Source: Streptococcus oralis (lineage in GTDB: Bacteria; Bacillota; Bacilli; Lactobacillales; Streptococcaceae). Taken from it: a stretch of DNA of 64,000 nt. How positions within the stretch are numbered: position 1 is the first letter of the stretch; every line of letters begins with the position of its first letter. The notes below the pieces were generated by a model. It ran no database searches. It had not been told where the DNA came from and saw nothing but the letters and a program-made list of their open reading frames with translations. A program made the position numbers and the translations under genes. The stretch is from positions 1 through 64,000 of the forward strand of contig NZ_KQ969523.1 of NCBI RefSeq assembly GCF_001578935.1, in the 5' to 3' direction. This document shows, piece by piece, positions 3,491-16,586 of this stretch.

Positions 3491-3559
3491 TGCTTTTTTC
3501 GAATAAATAAGATAAAATAGCCTAGAATAAATGATTATGATTATAGAAAAGAGAAAAAT

Positions 3560-11391: not shown

Positions 11392-12380
11392 AAAAAATCG
11401 CAGTAGATGCTATGGGGGGCGATTACGCACCTCAAGCCATCGTTGAGGGTGTCAACCAAGCCCTTGCTGACTTTTCAGATATTGAGATTCAACTATATGG
11501 AGATGAAAGCAAGATCAAGCAATATCTAACGGCTACAGAGCGCGTCAGCATTATCCATACGGATGAGAAAATCAACTCAGACGATGAGCCGACAAAAGCT
11601 ATCCGTAAGAAGAAAAATGCCAGCATGGTATTAGCAGCTAAGGCTGTCAAGGATGGAGAGGCAGACGCTGTCCTCTCAGCTGGGAATACAGGTGCCTTGT
11701 TGGCTGCAGGATTCTTCATTGTAGGTCGTATCAAGAATATCGACCGTCCTGGACTCATGTCGACCTTACCGACCATTGATGGAAAAGGGTTTGATATGCT
11801 AGATCTCGGTGCCAATGCGGAAAATACAGCCCATCATCTGCACCAATACGCTGTTTTGGGTTCCTTCTATGCGAAAAATGTTCGTGGGATTTCGAGACCA
11901 CGTGTTGGTTTGCTCAACAATGGAACAGAAAGTAGCAAGGGAGATCCCCTTCGCAAGGAAACATACGACTTGCTAGTAGCTGATGAGAATCTGAACTTTG
12001 TCGGAAATGTGGAAGCGCGTGATTTGATGAATGGCGTTGCGGATGTTGTCGTAACAGATGGTTTCACGGGAAACGCTGTTCTCAAATCCATTGAAGGTAC
12101 AGCTTTGGGAATCATGGGCTTACTTAAAAATGCTATTACGGGTGGTGGCCTTCGAGCGAAGCTAGGTGCTCTCCTTCTCAAGGATAGTCTTAAGGGGTTG
12201 AAGACACAGCTCAACTATTCAGATGTTGGAGGAGCAGTCTTGTTTGGCGTCAAGGCGCCAGTTGTAAAAACTCATGGCTCAAGTGATGCCAAGGCTGTGT
12301 ACAGTACGATTCGTCAGATTCGTACCATGCTAGAAACAGACGTAGTTGCTCAAACTGCGCGTGAATTTTCAGGAGAATAA
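11388..12380 (+). CDS. plsX: Phosphate acyltransferase PlsX
   Basis: Converts acyl-ACP and phosphate to acyl-phosphate, which PlsY uses to acylate glycerol 3-phosphate: the entry to phospholipid synthesis. The 330-residue protein shows [12 protein letters not shown] at the N-terminus, [27 protein letters not shown] and [16 protein letters not shown], all family hallmarks. It is a peripheral membrane enzyme with no signal peptide. ATGA overlap with recO, and only 5 bases before acpP. Confidence 0.96.
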
Positions 12381-12385
12381 AAAAG

Positions 12386-12622
12386 ATGACAGAAAAAGAA
12401 ATTTTTGACCGTATTGTAACCATTATCCAAGAGCGACAGGGAGAGGACTTTGTCGTAACAGAGGCCTTGAGTTTGAAAGATGACCTAGATGCGGACTCAG
12501 TGGACTTGATGGAGTTCGTCCTAACGCTAGAAGATGAATTTGGTATCGAAATCACTGATGAGGAAATCGATCAACTTCAAAGTGTAGCGGATGTAGTAGC
12601 GATTATTAAAGATAAAAAATAG
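12386..12622 (+). CDS. acpP: Acyl carrier protein
   Basis: A 78-residue acidic carrier protein. DADSVDLMEFVL contains the DSxDL motif whose Ser takes the 4'-phosphopantetheine arm. It directly follows plsX, which consumes acyl-ACP. Streptococci carry a second ACP in the fab cluster; this plsX-linked copy is the other one by position. Confidence 0.93.
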   Translation: MTEKEIFDRIVTIIQERQGEDFVVTEALSLKDDLDADSVDLMEFVLTLEDEFGIEITDEEIDQLQSVADVVAIIKDKK

Positions 12623-12627
12623 CCAAA

Positions 12628-12655
12628 AGCAACATGCAAGTCATGTTGTTTTTTT
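12628..12655 (+). terminator. Terminator after acpP
   Basis: CAACATG (12630-12636), CAAGT loop, CATGTTG (12642-12648), seven T. It separates the housekeeping operon from the peptide island. Confidence 0.85.
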
Positions 12656-12728
12656 ATTTGCGGAAAAAAGAGAAACTTTTAGTAGAAATTGCGAATAAAG
12701 AGATGAGAAAGAAAAAGGAGGAACGTTT

Positions 12729-12779
12729 ATGTATGTGACCGGTTTTTATCCGTGGTTTATTAAGTGGTTTTTAAAATAA
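12729..12779 (+). CDS. Mini-peptide 1 (16 residues)
   Basis: The frame reads MYVTGFYPWFIKWFLK. AGGAGG (12716-12721) stands 7 bases before the ATG, an ideal ribosome site. The peptide is strongly hydrophobic, with two Trp, four Phe/Tyr near them, one Pro, and a net positive charge from two Lys. It has no leader, no double-glycine site and no signal sequence, so if expressed it would act as such or after simple trimming. I do not recognise a family. Possibilities are a leaderless membrane-active peptide, a pheromone precursor or a small membrane regulator. No function is assigned. Confidence 0.6.
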   Translation: MYVTGFYPWFIKWFLK

Positions 12780-12852
12780 AAATGAATGAATTGTTCATTT
12801 TCGAATTGTTTTTCGAATAGATAGGTAAGAAAAAAAGAAAGGAGATTACGCG

Positions 12853-12903
12853 ATGTATTTACCAATCTTATTACCATGGTTGATCAAATGGTATTTAAAA
12901 TAA
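12853..12903 (+). CDS. Mini-peptide 2 (16 residues)
   Basis: The frame reads MYLPILLPWLIKWYLK. AAAGGAG (12838-12844) is spaced 8 bases before the ATG. It shares MY, PW(L/F)IKW and the LK end with mini-peptide 1. Conservation of the encoded pattern across units with diverged nucleotide sequence suggests selection for the peptide rather than chance. Confidence 0.6.
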   Translation: MYLPILLPWLIKWYLK

Positions 12904-12975
12904 ATGAAATTTACCTGTTCATTTTAAATTACTTCTCGAATAGATAAGTGAGAAGAAAAGGAAGGAGAGAAGAAA

Positions 12976-13026
12976 ATGATTTCAGTAATTTACCCAATCT
13001 GGCTATTTAAGTGGCTTAGAGGTTAA
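12976..13026 (+). CDS. Mini-peptide 3 (16 residues)
   Basis: The frame reads MISVIYPIWLFKWLRG. AAGGAG (12962-12967) stands 8 bases before the ATG. It is more diverged than the other two but keeps YP, the W-x-x-KW spacing and a basic C-terminus. It ends 35 bases before the first double-glycine bacteriocin gene, with no terminator between, so read-through into the bacteriocin genes is likely. Confidence 0.58.
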   Translation: MISVIYPIWLFKWLRG

Positions 13027-13061
13027 AGATTAAATATATAGAAAAAATAAGGAGAAAAAAG

Positions 13062-13259
13062 ATGACAAATTTTGACAACATGGAACAGAACTTTGTAGCT
13101 CTTACAGAAGAAGAGTTGACGGATGTGAATGGGGGGCTTGCACCAATTATTATTGGTGGTGTAGTTATTAGTTGGAAATTAATTGGAGGTGTGGCTGCGC
13201 TTGCTACAACTTCAGCAGGTGTAGGAGTAGCTGCGGGCTATTATGCTAATAGACCATAA
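13062..13259 (+). CDS. Class IIb bacteriocin peptide A (double-glycine leader)
   Basis: A 65-residue precursor. The leader ends LTEEELTDVNGG at residue 25, the classic double-glycine processing site for C39-peptidase transporters such as ComA or BlpA. The mature 40-residue peptide (starting LAPIIIGG) is Gly/Ala-rich with repeated GxxxG-type spacing (for example GVGVAAG), typical of the helix-helix partners in two-peptide bacteriocins. AAGGAG precedes the ATG. The likely partner is the 51-residue precursor at 13473, and the small membrane proteins that follow each peptide are the likely immunity proteins. ComAB, encoded 1.2 kb downstream, is a plausible exporter. Confidence 0.82.
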   Translation: MTNFDNMEQNFVALTEEELTDVNGGLAPIIIGGVVISWKLIGGVAALATTSAGVGVAAGYYANRP

Positions 13260-13273
13260 TTTTGGAGATATGT

Positions 13274-13480
13274 ATGAAATTCGTTAAAATGATACTAAAG
13301 GTTTGGCCTGAACTTATGGTATTACTTAGTTCAATATCTTATACAATCATCAGGTTAGTAGCTGATGTAAATAAGATATCCTTACCTACTTGGTTTGATG
13401 ATTTTAATATACCGACAATTTCATTGTTTTTAATGGTGTTCATTTTATTATATAGAAGTAAAGGAGAAGAGAATGGATAA
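13274..13480 (+). CDS. Small membrane protein, putative bacteriocin immunity
   Basis: 68 residues from the ATG at 13274 (MKFVKMILKVWPEL), preceded by GGAG. A TTG at 13262 in frame would add four residues but overlies the ribosome site. Two hydrophobic spans (about residues 10-30 and 48-62) with a short polar middle, SLPTWFDDFNIPT. The position between the two bacteriocin peptides and the 8-base overlap with the second peptide gene support an immunity role. A decayed copy of this gene lies at 14014-14223. Confidence 0.7.
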   Translation: MKFVKMILKVWPELMVLLSSISYTIIRLVADVNKISLPTWFDDFNIPTISLFLMVFILLYRSKGEENG

Positions 13481-13628
13481 ATTTCAAGTAATTGATGAGA
13501 AAGATTTGCAAGCAATCGAAGGAGGAATTGAGCCTATTTCGATTATATTTGGTCTAAGTGCTATTGCATTCAGCGCATTTGGAGCTGGTTACAAATTTGG
13601 TTCAGATTTGGCTCGTCGCGGTCGTTAG
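13473..13628 (+). CDS. Class IIb bacteriocin peptide B (double-glycine leader)
   Basis: A 51-residue precursor, MDKFQVIDEKDLQAIEGG then a 33-residue mature peptide beginning IEPISIIFG and ending ARRGR. The GG at 17-18 is the processing site. The mature part has GxxxG (GYKFG) and a basic tail. It starts inside the end of the preceding immunity gene (AAGGAG upstream), which indicates translational coupling. Complements peptide A as the second half of a two-peptide system. Confidence 0.78.
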   Translation: MDKFQVIDEKDLQAIEGGIEPISIIFGLSAIAFSAFGAGYKFGSDLARRGR

Positions 13629-13631
13629 GTA

Positions 13632-13847
13632 ATGAACAATCGTAACCTAAATCTCAATACATTGTTACCTAAGCTAGCCACTATACTTCCTTTGTTAGGA
13701 ATAGGTCTTAATCTTACGCTTCATCTAATTCGTACGAGTTCGCTAGTATCTTTTGATTGGCAATGGAGTTTAATAGGTTTGATTGCTGCAGGCTATTTTG
13801 GTATTTTTTGTAAGGATTTGAAGAAAAATAATCAAAACTATAAATGA
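13632..13847 (+). CDS. Small membrane protein, putative second immunity protein
   Basis: A 71-residue protein with two hydrophobic segments (LATILPLLGIGLNLTLHLI and WSLIGLIAAGYFGIF) and a basic C-terminus KDLKKNNQNYK. It starts 3 bases after peptide B. No close family is recognised; the role is inferred from place and size. Confidence 0.6.
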   Translation: MNNRNLNLNTLLPKLATILPLLGIGLNLTLHLIRTSSLVSFDWQWSLIGLIAAGYFGIFCKDLKKNNQNYK

Positions 13848-13912
13848 TGAATCTGAATGGAAAGGATTTTGTGCATGTAAATGGCGGAGTTTTTCCACCT
13901 TGTTTTATCTAG
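13844..13912 (+). pseudogene. Remnant of a third double-glycine peptide gene
   Basis: The frame reads MMNLNGKDFVHVNGGVFPPCFI then stops. VNGG at residues 12-15 looks like the end of a double-glycine leader, but only seven residues follow. The next 70 bases in another frame encode a Gly/Tyr/Lys-rich stretch (YGGYKYK), which fits a frameshifted mature region. It overlaps the previous gene's stop. Confidence 0.45.
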
Positions 13913-14013
13913 AGACTTATCCGATTCTGCTTAGTTTGTTTTATGGAGGATACAAGTACAAAACAATAGATAGTAAGATAGAGAATTGATGGAATGTCAG
14001 ATTGGAGTTGGAG

Positions 14014-14223
14014 ATGAAAGTCGTTTAATTGCTACAAAAAGCTTGACCAGAGTTTATTGTATTGTTTAGCTCTATAACTTATCTAATGATTAGAATTGTG
14101 GCTGATGTAAACAAAATAAATTTACCTACGTGGTTTGAATGTTTTGATATACCTACGATTTCATTATTTTTGATGACATTTATCTCACTTTATAGAAGTA
14201 AAGAGAATATCATTTCAGAATAG
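14014..14223 (+). pseudogene. Decayed copy of the bacteriocin immunity gene
   Basis: Translated in one frame from ATG 14014 this aligns along its whole length with the protein at 13274-13480, for example SSITYLMIRIVADVNK, INLPTWFECFDIPTISLFLM and FISLYRSKE, but codons 5 and 11 are stops (TAA, TGA). The duplicate is therefore inactivated. It shows the bacteriocin-immunity unit was duplicated and then lost. Confidence 0.85.
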
Positions 14224-14288
14224 TTTATTTCTAGGCATTCATTTTTTAATGGTTACTTTAAACAGGCGGAACTTTTGTTCTGCTTTTT

Positions 14289-14337
14289 ACATTTAAATGA
14301 TAGTTTATACTTTTTAAAGTGCGTTTTAGGTGTAAAA
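14289..14337 (+). promoter_or_regulatory. Possible ComE-type direct repeat and promoter of comAB
   Basis: ACATTTAAA (14289-14297) and ACTTTTTAA (14309-14317) start 20 bases apart, similar to the ComE direct repeat (consensus from memory aCAnTTcaG, 12 bases, aCAgTTgaG), and an AT-rich -10-like TGTAAAAAT follows at 14331. comAB is an early competence operon driven by ComE in pneumococci. The match to consensus is only partial. Confidence 0.4.
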
Positions 14338-14432
14338 ATGGTTTGTTTAGGAATGTTTTCCTGTTTTTATCCTTATTTGGTTAAAATAATCTTACAAATT
14401 TTTAAAGAGATTGTTAGAAAAAGGAGAAGGAT

Positions 14433-16586
14433 ATGAAATTTGGGAAAAGGCACTATCGTCCACAGGTGGATCAGATGGATTGTGGCGTGGCTTCCTTAGC
14501 CATGGTATTTGGCTACTATGGTAGTTATTACTCCTTGGCTCATCTACGAGAATTAGCCAAGACGACCATGGATGGGACGACGGCTTTGGGGCTTGTAAAG
14601 GTAGCAGAGGAGATTGGGTTTGAGACGCGGGCTATCAAGGCGGATATGACGCTCTTTGATCTGCCAGATTTGACCTTTCCTTTTGTGGCTCATGTGCTCA
14701 AGGAAGGGAAGTTGCTCCACTACTATGTGGTGATAGGTCAGGATAAAAAGCACATCCATATCGCTGATCCAGATCCTGATGTCAAGCTGACCAAGATTTC
14801 CCGTGAGCGATTTGCGCAAGAGTGGACAGGGGTTAGTATTTTTATGGCGCCATCTCCGAGCTATAAACCTCATAAGGAGAAAAAACAGGGGCTCTTATCC
14901 TTCATGCCGATTTTACTCAAACAGCATGGCTTAATTACCAATATCGTTCTAGCGACACTCTTGGTAACACTGATTAACATTGTAGGTTCTTATTATCTAC
15001 AGTCTATCATTGATAGTTACGTACCAGATCAGATGCGCTCGACACTGGGTATTATCTCTATTGGGCTGGTCATCGTCTATATCCTCCAGCAGATTTTGTC
15101 CTACGCGCAGGAATATCTCCTACTGATCCTTGGGCAACGCTTGTCGATTGACGTGATTTTGTCCTACATCAAGCATGTTTTTCACCTGCCAATGTCCTTT
15201 TTTGCGACACGCAGGACAGGAGAAATCGTGTCTCGTTTTACAGATGCCAACAGTATCATCGATGCGCTGGCGTCGACCATTCTGTCGATTTTCCTAGATG
15301 TGTCGACGATTTTGATTATCTCGCTGGTCTTGTTTTCACAAAATATGACGCTCTTTTTCATTAGTTTACTTGCACTCCCCATCTATACAGTGATTATCTT
15401 TGCCTTTATGAAGCCGTTTGAAAAGATGAATCGGGATACCATGGAAGCCAATGCGGTTCTGTCTTCTTCTATCATCGAGGACATCAACGGTATTGAGACT
15501 ATCAAGTCCTTGACTAGCGAAAGTCAGCGTTACCAAAAGATTGACAAGGAATTTGTGGCTTATCTGAAAAAATCCTTTACCTATAGTCGGGCAGAAAGCC
15601 AGCAAAAGGCTCTGAAAAAAGTTGCCCAGCTCCTGCTCAATGTTGCCGTTCTCTGGCTGGGAGCTATTCTTGTCATGGATGGGAAAATGAGTTTGGGTCA
15701 GCTGATTACTTATAACACCCTGCTTGTTTACTTTACCAATCCTTTGGAAAATATCATTAACCTACAAACCAAACTTCAGACAGCGCAGGTTGCCAATAAT
15801 CGCTTAAATGAGGTCTATCTAGTAGCTTCGGAGTTTGAGGAGAAGAAAACGGTAGAAGATTTGAGCATGATGCAAGGGGATATGACCTTTAAACAAGTTC
15901 ACTATAAGTATGGCTATGGGCGTGATGTCTTGTCGGATATCAATTTGACCATTCCACAAGGGTCTAAGATGGCTTTTGTGGGGATTTCGGGGTCAGGAAA
16001 GACCACCTTGGCCAAGATGATGGTTAATTTTTACGACCCAAGTCAAGGGGAGATTAGTCTGGGTGGTGTCAATCTCAATCAGATTGATAAAAAAGCCCTG
16101 CGCCAGTATATTAACTATTTGCCTCAACAGCCCTATGTCTTTAACGGAACGATTTTGGAGAATCTTCTCCTTGGAGCCAAGGAGGGGACGACTCAGGAAG
16201 ATATCTTACGGGCGGTTGAGTTGGCCGAGATTCGGGAGGATATTGAGCGTATGCCCCTGAATTATCAGACAGAATTAACTTCGGATGGGGCTGGAATTTC
16301 TGGTGGGCAACGGCAACGAATCGCTCTGGCGCGTGCTCTCTTGACAGATGCGCCTGTCTTGATATTGGATGAGGCGACCAGCAGTCTGGATATTTTGACA
16401 GAGAAGCGGATCGTGGATAATCTTATGGCTTTGGACAAGACCTTGATTTTCATCGCCCATCGCTTGACCATCGCTGAGCGGACAGAAAAGGTTGTTGTTT
16501 TGGCTCAGGGCAAGATTGTCGAAGAAGGCACCCATGCAGACTTGCTTGCTAGAGGTGGCTTTTACGCCCATTTGGTGAATAGCTAG
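14433..16586 (+). CDS. comA: ComA, competence-stimulating peptide ABC transporter/protease
   Basis: Exports and matures CSP, cutting after the double glycine of ComC; it can also process bacteriocin precursors. The 717-residue length equals pneumococcal ComA. N-terminal C39 peptidase with Cys17, His96 and Asp112; six-span membrane domain about 160-450; ABC domain with Walker A GISGSGKTT, signature ISGGQRQR, Walker B VLILDEATSSLD and switch FIAHRL. Forms the secretion complex with ComB. AAAAGGAGAAGG is a strong ribosome site. The neighbouring double-glycine bacteriocin genes are plausible extra substrates. Confidence 0.96.
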   Translation: MKFGKRHYRPQVDQMDCGVASLAMVFGYYGSYYSLAHLRELAKTTMDGTTALGLVKVAEEIGFETRAIKADMTLFDLPDLTFPFVAHVLKEGKLLHYYVVIGQDKKHIHIADPDPDVKLTKISRERFAQEWTGVSIFMAPSPSYKPHKEKKQGLLSFMPILLKQHGLITNIVLATLLVTLINIVGSYYLQSIIDSYVPDQMRSTLGIISIGLVIVYILQQILSYAQEYLLLILGQRLSIDVILSYIKHVFHLPMSFFATRRTGEIVSRFTDANSIIDALASTILSIFLDVSTILIISLVLFSQNMTLFFISLLALPIYTVIIFAFMKPFEKMNRDTMEANAVLSSSIIEDINGIETIKSLTSESQRYQKIDKEFVAYLKKSFTYSRAESQQKALKKVAQLLLNVAVLWLGAILVMDGKMSLGQLITYNTLLVYFTNPLENIINLQTKLQTAQVANNRLNEVYLVASEFEEKKTVEDLSMMQGDMTFKQVHYKYGYGRDVLSDINLTIPQGSKMAFVGISGSGKTTLAKMMVNFYDPSQGEISLGGVNLNQIDKKALRQYINYLPQQPYVFNGTILENLLLGAKEGTTQEDILRAVELAEIREDIERMPLNYQTELTSDGAGISGGQRQRIALARALLTDAPVLILDEATSSLDILTEKRIVDNLMALDKTLIFIAHRLTIAERTEKVVVLAQGKIVEEGTHADLLARGGFYAHLVNS

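Follow-up and report, generated by a model that had tools for sequence, protein, structure and literature searches.

Most of the SigX boxes that we examined in the cab locus of Streptococcus oralis and related streptococci appear, judging from the DNA, to be the heads of conserved micro-ORFs. The ORFs of classes A to C are under frame-specific purifying selection at the amino acid level, and the ORFs of a further class, D, are under weaker constraint and frequently broken. Our overall reading, to which we give a little less than an even chance, is that the repeated cab SigX boxes mark a multigene family whose products are leaderless membrane peptides of 16 residues made under the competence program. 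Each micro-gene would have its own promoter, and the family would span the S. oralis-mitis-infantis clade, with runs of five (and one locus of seven) among S. mitis-like strains. In this reading, the peptides would be a part, overlooked so far, of the killing, self-protection, or DNA release that accompanies competence.

The window analyzed here is a stretch of 64,000 nucleotides of S. oralis DNA (contig NZ_KQ969523.1, positions 1 to 64,000). An initial annotation of this stretch had described three tandem 16-residue ORFs, each with a box and a strong Shine-Dalgarno sequence and repeated with a period of ∼123 bases. Inspection of the sequence and a script check bore out this description, so the array itself is confirmed, and such units were also found in many other genomes; the interpretation that accompanied it is partly supported. 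The array consists of the following elements.

12690..12697, + strand: SigX box 1, TGCGAATA, of a class A unit; 7/8 positions match TACGAATA, with CGAATA at 12692
12716..12721, + strand: Shine-Dalgarno AGGAGG of unit 1 (sequence, script check)
12729..12779, + strand: ORF 1, MYVTGFYPWFIKWFLK, class A, the acpP-adjacent unit (class A pN/pS, 0.19)
12812..12819, + strand: SigX box 2, TTCGAATA; 7/8 to TACGAATA, with CGAATA at 12814
12840..12844, + strand: Shine-Dalgarno AGGAG of unit 2 (sequence, script check)
12853..12903, + strand: ORF 2, MYLPILLPWLIKWYLK, class B (class B pN/pS, 0.25)
12935..12942, + strand: SigX box 3, CTCGAATA; 6/8 to TACGAATA, with CGAATA at 12937
12962..12967, + strand: Shine-Dalgarno AAGGAG of unit 3 (sequence, script check)
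12976..13026, + strand: ORF 3, MISVIYPIWLFKWLRG, class D (constraint weaker, frequently broken in relatives)

Each ORF is 51 bases long and encodes 16 residues, the units start 124 and 123 bases apart, and the box-to-ATG gaps are 31, 33, and 33 bases in units 1, 2, and 3, respectively. The com-box scores of 7, 7, and 6 of 8 given by the initial annotation were reproduced by script, and its statement that the peptides have no leader or signal is consistent with their sequences. Upstream of the box, units 2 and 3 have a clear T-run, whereas that of unit 1 is weaker. The full architecture, CGAATA-N18..34-GGAG-N4..12-ATG, has exactly three matches in the window, all of them array units, versus a mean of 0.17 in the shuffled window, with 0 of 100 shuffles reaching three. 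The box alone showed no enrichment in the window (TNCGAATA occurs 6 times versus 6.6 expected). Peptides 1 and 2 are clearly similar, as their score was reached by 0 of 20,000 shuffles, and peptide 3 weakly resembles them, since 2.3% and 1.5% of shuffles reached its score with peptides 1 and 2, respectively.

The array is followed by two bacteriocin genes and is bordered by acpP and comA, as listed below.

12386..12622, + strand: acpP, acyl carrier protein, upstream border of the cab locus (Pfam PF00550, NCBIfam NF009104)
12625..12653, + strand: intrinsic-terminator-like hairpin 3' of acpP (consensus scan; a shorter one was also called on the reverse strand)
13062..13259, + strand: first double-glycine (GG) bacteriocin of the cab operon, 65 aa (NCBIfam TIGR03949, E 8.8e-10)
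13274..13480, + strand: 68-aa hydrophobic protein, putative cab immunity gene (from position and hydrophobicity, with no accepted Pfam or NCBIfam match)
13473..13628, + strand: second double-glycine bacteriocin, 51 aa (TIGR03949, E 1.7e-8)
13632..13847, + strand: 71-aa hydrophobic protein, putative immunity gene (from position only)
14433..16586, + strand: comA, peptidase-ABC exporter, downstream border (Peptidase_C39, TIGR01193)

TIGR03949 is the class IIb bacteriocin family of lactobin A/cerein 7B, and two such genes lie between acpP and comA. With its GG-leader bacteriocins between acpP and comAB, the array locus is the known cab (competence-associated bacteriocins) locus of Mitis-group streptococci. 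It shares with the cab locus described in S. mitis (PMC6001120, PMC13059744) the place between plsX-acpP and comAB, the boxes, the GG-leader bacteriocins, and a link to SigX-dependent transcription. Because of the terminator-like hairpin after acpP, the array is probably the start of a new transcription unit. A consensus scan found no terminator-like site between the units, so read-through from one unit to the next is possible. In the same locus, a 202-nt direct repeat with 74% identity links positions 14002-14203 to 13262-13463; the copy at 14002-14203 is a degraded duplicate of the putative immunity gene and perhaps a trace of cab cassette shuffling.

To describe the spread of the array, we used its DNA as a query against 197 Streptococcus genomes, 62 of which matched at an E value of 0.001 or better; 51 matched below 1e-15, and the other 11 had weak matches only (9e-7 or worse). 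A sequence model of the unit matched 134 of the 197 genomes at an E value of 0.01, and the 51 with matches below 1e-10 were the same 51 as found with the DNA query, although one of them (G127) contains only a decayed class D unit, i.e., a relic. The peptide pattern P-W-x-I-K-W-(F/Y)-x-K was present in 33 of the 197 genomes and the reversed control pattern in none. Scanning 84,980 species genomes for W-x-x-K-x-(F/Y)-(F/L)-K-stop returned 56 stretches, with several genomes giving two and records close to the source genome possibly omitted; 55 were labeled Streptococcus (mitis, oralis, infantis, pseudopneumoniae, pneumoniae, thalassemiae, shenyangsis, hohhotensis, and unnamed species), and the remaining one was a Clostridia record without a box or a start. 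Up to five motif-matching units are consecutive, and locus L064 contains seven, in two runs. In acpP-adjacent loci, a class A unit (MYVT... or MYMPI...) comes first, except where the first unit is broken or hidden by N, and class C (MYLPIFYPWFTKLFFK and similar) makes up the bulk of the expansions in S. mitis-like genomes. This spread, together with the selection tests described below, supports the conserved peptide family that the initial annotation had proposed.

We then asked what lies behind the boxes. In 25 complete acpP-comA regions, fetched via unit matches (2 more, from one genome represented twice, were dropped for N runs), there are 79 forward [TCA]NCGAATA boxes. Sixty-four of them head a motif ORF of 15 to 18 residues at the right distance, 4 lead into a GG-leader peptide, 2 into a longer ORF, and 9 into nothing of this kind; the same regions have 8 further boxes on the reverse strand. 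CGAATA is near-invariant across units. A second model contained upstream DNA only and no coding base, its training units having originally been found by the peptide motif. After removal from its 490 raw matches of those under 20 bits, cut by locus ends, in N runs, or identical repeats, 219 matches were considered; 171 carry an ORF of 16 to 18 residues, and all 171 ORFs fit the peptide motif. The remainder comprised 15 matches leading into a GG peptide, 19 in which no start was recognized, 8 lacking a standard box, and 6 of other kinds. Reading of the 19 showed 13 class D copies whose ATG or frame was lost or recombined, two intact units with a poor Shine-Dalgarno sequence, one GTG start, one ATG changed to ACG, and two non-units. 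The 8 without a standard box (rows from which duplicates were not removed) have CGAATG or CGAAAA and ORFs that look intact, and among the 6 of other kinds, three are A or C ORFs that have been shortened, one is an intact unit that the script misread, and two belong to other genes. Nine stretches with weak matches unlinked to the locus were considered; three of them fit the upstream model, and none had a 16-mer. One presumably resembles dprA and another coiA. In genome G181 (locus L181), a TACGAATA box is followed at 32 bases by a 20-residue ORF, MKPIILFFTHRRHSCLSHFN, which is perhaps an unrelated micro-ORF.

Published work on the S. mitis cab locus treats the boxes as promoter repeats (PMC6001120, PMC13059744), whereas here most boxes head ORFs. 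One explanation would be that the repeated SigX boxes only amplify bacteriocin transcription and that the ORFs are by-products of the repeat. Consistent with this, replacement of five boxes by one in S. mitis G22 lowered reporter expression, and box number, which ranges from 2 to 38 per cab locus, scales with locus size (Borralho 2026, PMC13059744). However, the ORFs show amino-acid-level purifying selection that is specific to the reading frame. Pairwise in-frame pN/pS was 0.19 for class A (21 distinct ORFs), 0.25 for class B (8 ORFs), 0.21 for class C (24 ORFs), and 0.34 for both A2 (3 ORFs) and D (20 ORFs), with 14 of 180 rows left out as outside the family or as duplicate starts. For classes A to C pooled, the value was 0.28 in frame versus 1.13 and 1.40 in the shifted frames. 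The p values of these tests are optimistic, since the ORFs were selected by motif or model and concerted evolution among repeats makes changes nonindependent, while the frame contrast stands. The fraction of differing pairs was 0.40 at third codon positions, 0.16 at first, and 0.15 at second (permutation p, 0.0007); minimum spanning trees of the 57 A to C ORFs contained 71 synonymous and 52 nonsynonymous changes, with an expected synonymous fraction of 0.27 (dN/dS about 0.28; p, 1.6e-12); and the tree of 19 class D ORFs contained 16 and 20, respectively (dN/dS, 0.44; p, 0.012). Third codon positions are thus ∼2.5 times more variable than the others, and in shifted frames dN/dS was about 2 for A to C and 0.8 to 1.1 for D. 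Frame-specific purifying selection, as expected of a translated small-protein family, is seen for classes A to C and is weaker for class D, which often loses its ATG or frame. As for the reporter result, the 1-box construct dropped four boxes together, and by the present architecture the ORFs would have gone with them, suggesting that peptides were lost along with promoters. A promoter effect may hold as well, yet it leaves the ORFs unexplained, and we regard amplification alone as unlikely.

The link of the array to competence, also put forward by the initial annotation, is well supported. Among the weak matches of the unit model (E 1.6e-6 to 1e-2), 25 loci in 16 genomes were inspected. NCBIfam names for the genes behind them were dprA (L170, L182), comGA (L178), and radC (L185); L183, without an NCBIfam match, is what we take to be coiA; L168 is a decayed class D unit; and other loci carry the same sequences as those promoters, on one strand or the other, a promoter reading of the 25 loci that leaves out L169, L179, L180, L186, and some others. 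The genes dprA, comGA, radC, and coiA are late-competence genes. Since a model of the 16-mer unit finds the dprA, comGA, and radC promoters in genomes lacking the array, the box and leader of the unit are built like core SigX promoters, and the weakness of the dprA, comGA, and radC matches is as expected, because the promoters alone match. In agreement, the cab operon is reported to be SigX dependent in S. mitis NCTC 12261 (PMC6001120) and G22 (PMC13059744). Salvadori 2018 (PMC6001120) describes the operon before comAB as CSP induced in two S. mitis strains and as SigX dependent by RT-PCR, with two or three SigX boxes whose number had no clear explanation; a table of the same paper gives the SM12261_0044 promoter as TTT-0-TtCGAATA-33-ATG. 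Borralho 2026 (PMC13059744), which names the locus cab, reports that reporter expression was lost without both sigX genes. A TTCGAATA box is also found at 3498-3505 of the window, 54 bases before dut, which agrees with the reported ComX regulation of the dut operon (dut-radA) in pneumococcus (PMC6560143).

The 16-mers could also act as leader or arrest peptides, with translating or stalled ribosomes tuning the translation or stability of the cab message. In each presumed SigX message the short ORF would be near the 5' end, and the best conserved codons (W and K with the surrounding region) are in the second half of the ORF, both of which fit such a role. Yet no conserved RNA structure or pairing was found in the unit, and shuffles fold as well as the window's own units do. 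Nor did the consensus scan find a hairpin resembling an attenuator between units, and only the third ORF is directly followed by the bacteriocin gene, the other two being separated from it by one or two units. An Rfam search of 12300-14500 gave one match, with an E value of 0.66, far below the threshold of its family. We consider leader peptides rather unlikely, if somewhat more probable than a pure promoter repeat.

Small hydrophobic type I toxins encoded in tandem are known from E. coli, namely, Ibs/Sib and Ldr/Rdl, and the 16-mers resemble them as very short hydrophobic tandem ORFs. By analogy, the 16-mers might be toxin- or immunity-like membrane peptides that work inside the producer, for example on its membrane or against the CabAB that it makes, with no antisense antitoxin involved. 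They recall Ibs and Ldr in size, hydrophobicity, and multiplication in tandem, they have no secretion signal, and tight SigX control would make an antitoxin unnecessary. In contrast to the E. coli systems, however, no antisense promoter inside the array and no conserved structure or pairing were found, and expression is tied to a sigma factor. The consensus scan found no sigma-70-like site inside the array on either strand; a lone weak reverse-strand site (9/12) at 13178-13149 points toward the array but is no more than expected by chance, as sigma-70-like sites were rarer than in shuffles (4 found versus 8.8 expected). A type I toxin with an antisense RNA was accordingly left without support by the reverse-strand promoter scan, which is a weak test. 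We place toxin- or immunity-like peptides second in probability, at a modest level.

The composition of the peptides suggests another activity. Classes A to C have roughly the form M-Y-x-P-I-x-Y/L-P-W-x-I/T-K-W/L-F/Y-x-K, the mean net charge over 47 variants is +1.9 (one of the seven peptides computed individually has a charge of 0), and the Wimley-White interfacial sum of these seven peptides is -5.6 to -7.4 kcal/mol. Charge and interfacial transfer sum favor membrane binding. No helical amphipathicity beyond that of shuffles was found in the seven peptides, as 0.13 to 0.69 of shuffles reached the observed hydrophobic moment, which gives no indication of a classical lytic peptide with an amphipathic helix. 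The phenol-soluble modulin alpha peptides of Staphylococcus aureus are tandem, leaderless, amphipathic helices of ∼20 residues made under quorum control from one agr-controlled operon. The 16-mers are likewise tandem, leaderless, and short but differ in sequence, have a SigX box for every peptide, and are no more amphipathic than shuffles. Indolicidin and tritrpticin, short cationic Trp/Pro-rich animal peptides cut from larger precursors, are similar in composition only (cationic, with Trp, aromatic residues, and Pro), and we claim no homology.

We therefore favor, tentatively and with the highest probability among the readings considered though short of one half, that the units encode leaderless, cationic, aromatic accessory membrane-active peptides made with the cab bacteriocins; toxin- or immunity-like peptides come next, followed in order by leader peptides, promoter repeats, and signals. 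Most cab SigX boxes would then be the own promoters of tiny genes, whose products would be leaderless peptides of 16 to 17 residues with a net charge of about +2, rich in Trp, Phe, and Tyr. In late competence, SigX would transcribe the array, each unit starting a message that carries its 16-mer first and that may continue through the units behind it and on into the two-peptide cab bacteriocin operon. Most likely, the membrane interface would be where the peptides reside, and they would assist competence-linked predation as membrane-active effectors. They might leave the cell together with the bacteriocins or after them, or they might act on the membrane of the producer itself. We infer this translation, export, membrane activity, and role from the features described above. 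Several findings speak against this reading: no exporter for leaderless peptides is apparent adjoining the array, class D is often broken, and some loci uncouple the 16-mers from the bacteriocins.

Concerning this last point, the evidence for a link between 16-mers and bacteriocins is mixed. Among 26 regions fetched by unit matches, 25 have both and 1 has neither, but these regions were unit selected, and a comA-first search gave exceptions both ways, so strict co-occurrence was rejected and is not claimed. Fifty-one genomes have comA at 83% identity or more, and 49 of them also match the unit model below 1e-10 (G127 with its relic only). The two others are G039, which looks pneumococcus-like and has a BlpU-like peptide without a SigX box or 16-mer, and G078, which has no units and no acpP in the stretch fetched. 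Conversely, in S. oralis DD21 and CR140 (G108 and G062; L204 and L205), the order is acpP, units A and D, and purC. The two ORFs are kept there, while comAB and the cab genes are gone from that place, an outcome that would be expected from a strictly bacteriocin-accessory role only after a recent deletion. Both strains have CGAATG before D, and one has a changed Shine-Dalgarno sequence before A, as if the constraint on these units were fading. DD21 and CR140 have a different comA-like gene (73% identity) with GG peptides on another contig. In another streptococcus (L200 of G181), SigX-type TACGAATA boxes precede several GG bacteriocins upstream of a comA-like gene, and none of these boxes is followed by a 16-mer, showing that 16-mers are not needed for such bacteriocin loci in general.

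SIP, the leaderless signal of S. pyogenes, contains Trp. Signals of this kind, taken up and sensed by an RRNPP-type receptor, are the least probable of our readings and seem improbable for the 16-mers. A leaderless short signal has indeed been described in S. pyogenes (PMC6565748), but each array encodes several different variants; no Rgg/PlcR-type or other regulator gene was seen by eye between acpP and comA in the window; and the regulators that do adjoin some arrays belong to the kinase/LytTR type. Many S. mitis-type loci have, between acpP and the 16-mers, a gene for a LytTR-type response regulator; at about 2400-4220 of L069 it is preceded by a kinase-like gene (names from reading of the sequence), and the LytTR motif further occurs in L061, L064, L073, L077, L107, and others.

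The initial annotation had known of no description of such an array. That statement does not hold for the tandem SigX boxes, which have been published, but stands for the 16-residue ORFs, which are undescribed in the open papers searched: none of 11 distinct peptide strings was found in these 5.39 million papers, subscription papers, preprints, and supplements being outside the scope of the search. The promoter array is thus known, and the peptide family behind it appears to be new. The ORF scan described in Borralho 2026 (PMC13059744) took ORFs of 100 to 300 nt with a GG motif, so ORFs of 51 nt fall outside it, and the main text of that paper does not contain the terms small or short ORF, leaderless, or untranslated. 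More generally, ORF scans with a length floor can miss a multigene family. A precedent for tiny ORFs may exist in S. pneumoniae D39, where ribosome profiling identified rio3 and rio4 in or by srf-02, between spv_0047 and spv_2084/2085 (PMC9426450); by position (TIGR4 sp_0041-sp_0042), this is probably the same chromosomal interval as the array. The sequences of rio3 and rio4 differ from those of the 16-mers and have no SigX-box units, and they are a precedent only for tiny ORFs being translated there and mattering. A conserved micro-ORF behind most boxes examined offers a testable answer to the box number left unexplained by Salvadori 2018 (PMC6001120). The late-competence regulon of common human commensals would gain a candidate gene family, and the finding points to a product, so far undescribed, that oral streptococci make while taking up DNA and killing their neighbors.

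Finally, the SigX leader of the 16-mers also precedes a pair of GG-peptide genes in L069 (4703-4998), L072 (about 6577 onward), and L064. The proteins of this pair begin with MKEHYYGF... or MKEHQYEF... and with MNEMNDKY..., and the predicted mature peptide of the first gene has 20 residues, the size published for SM12261_0044 (PMC6001120).
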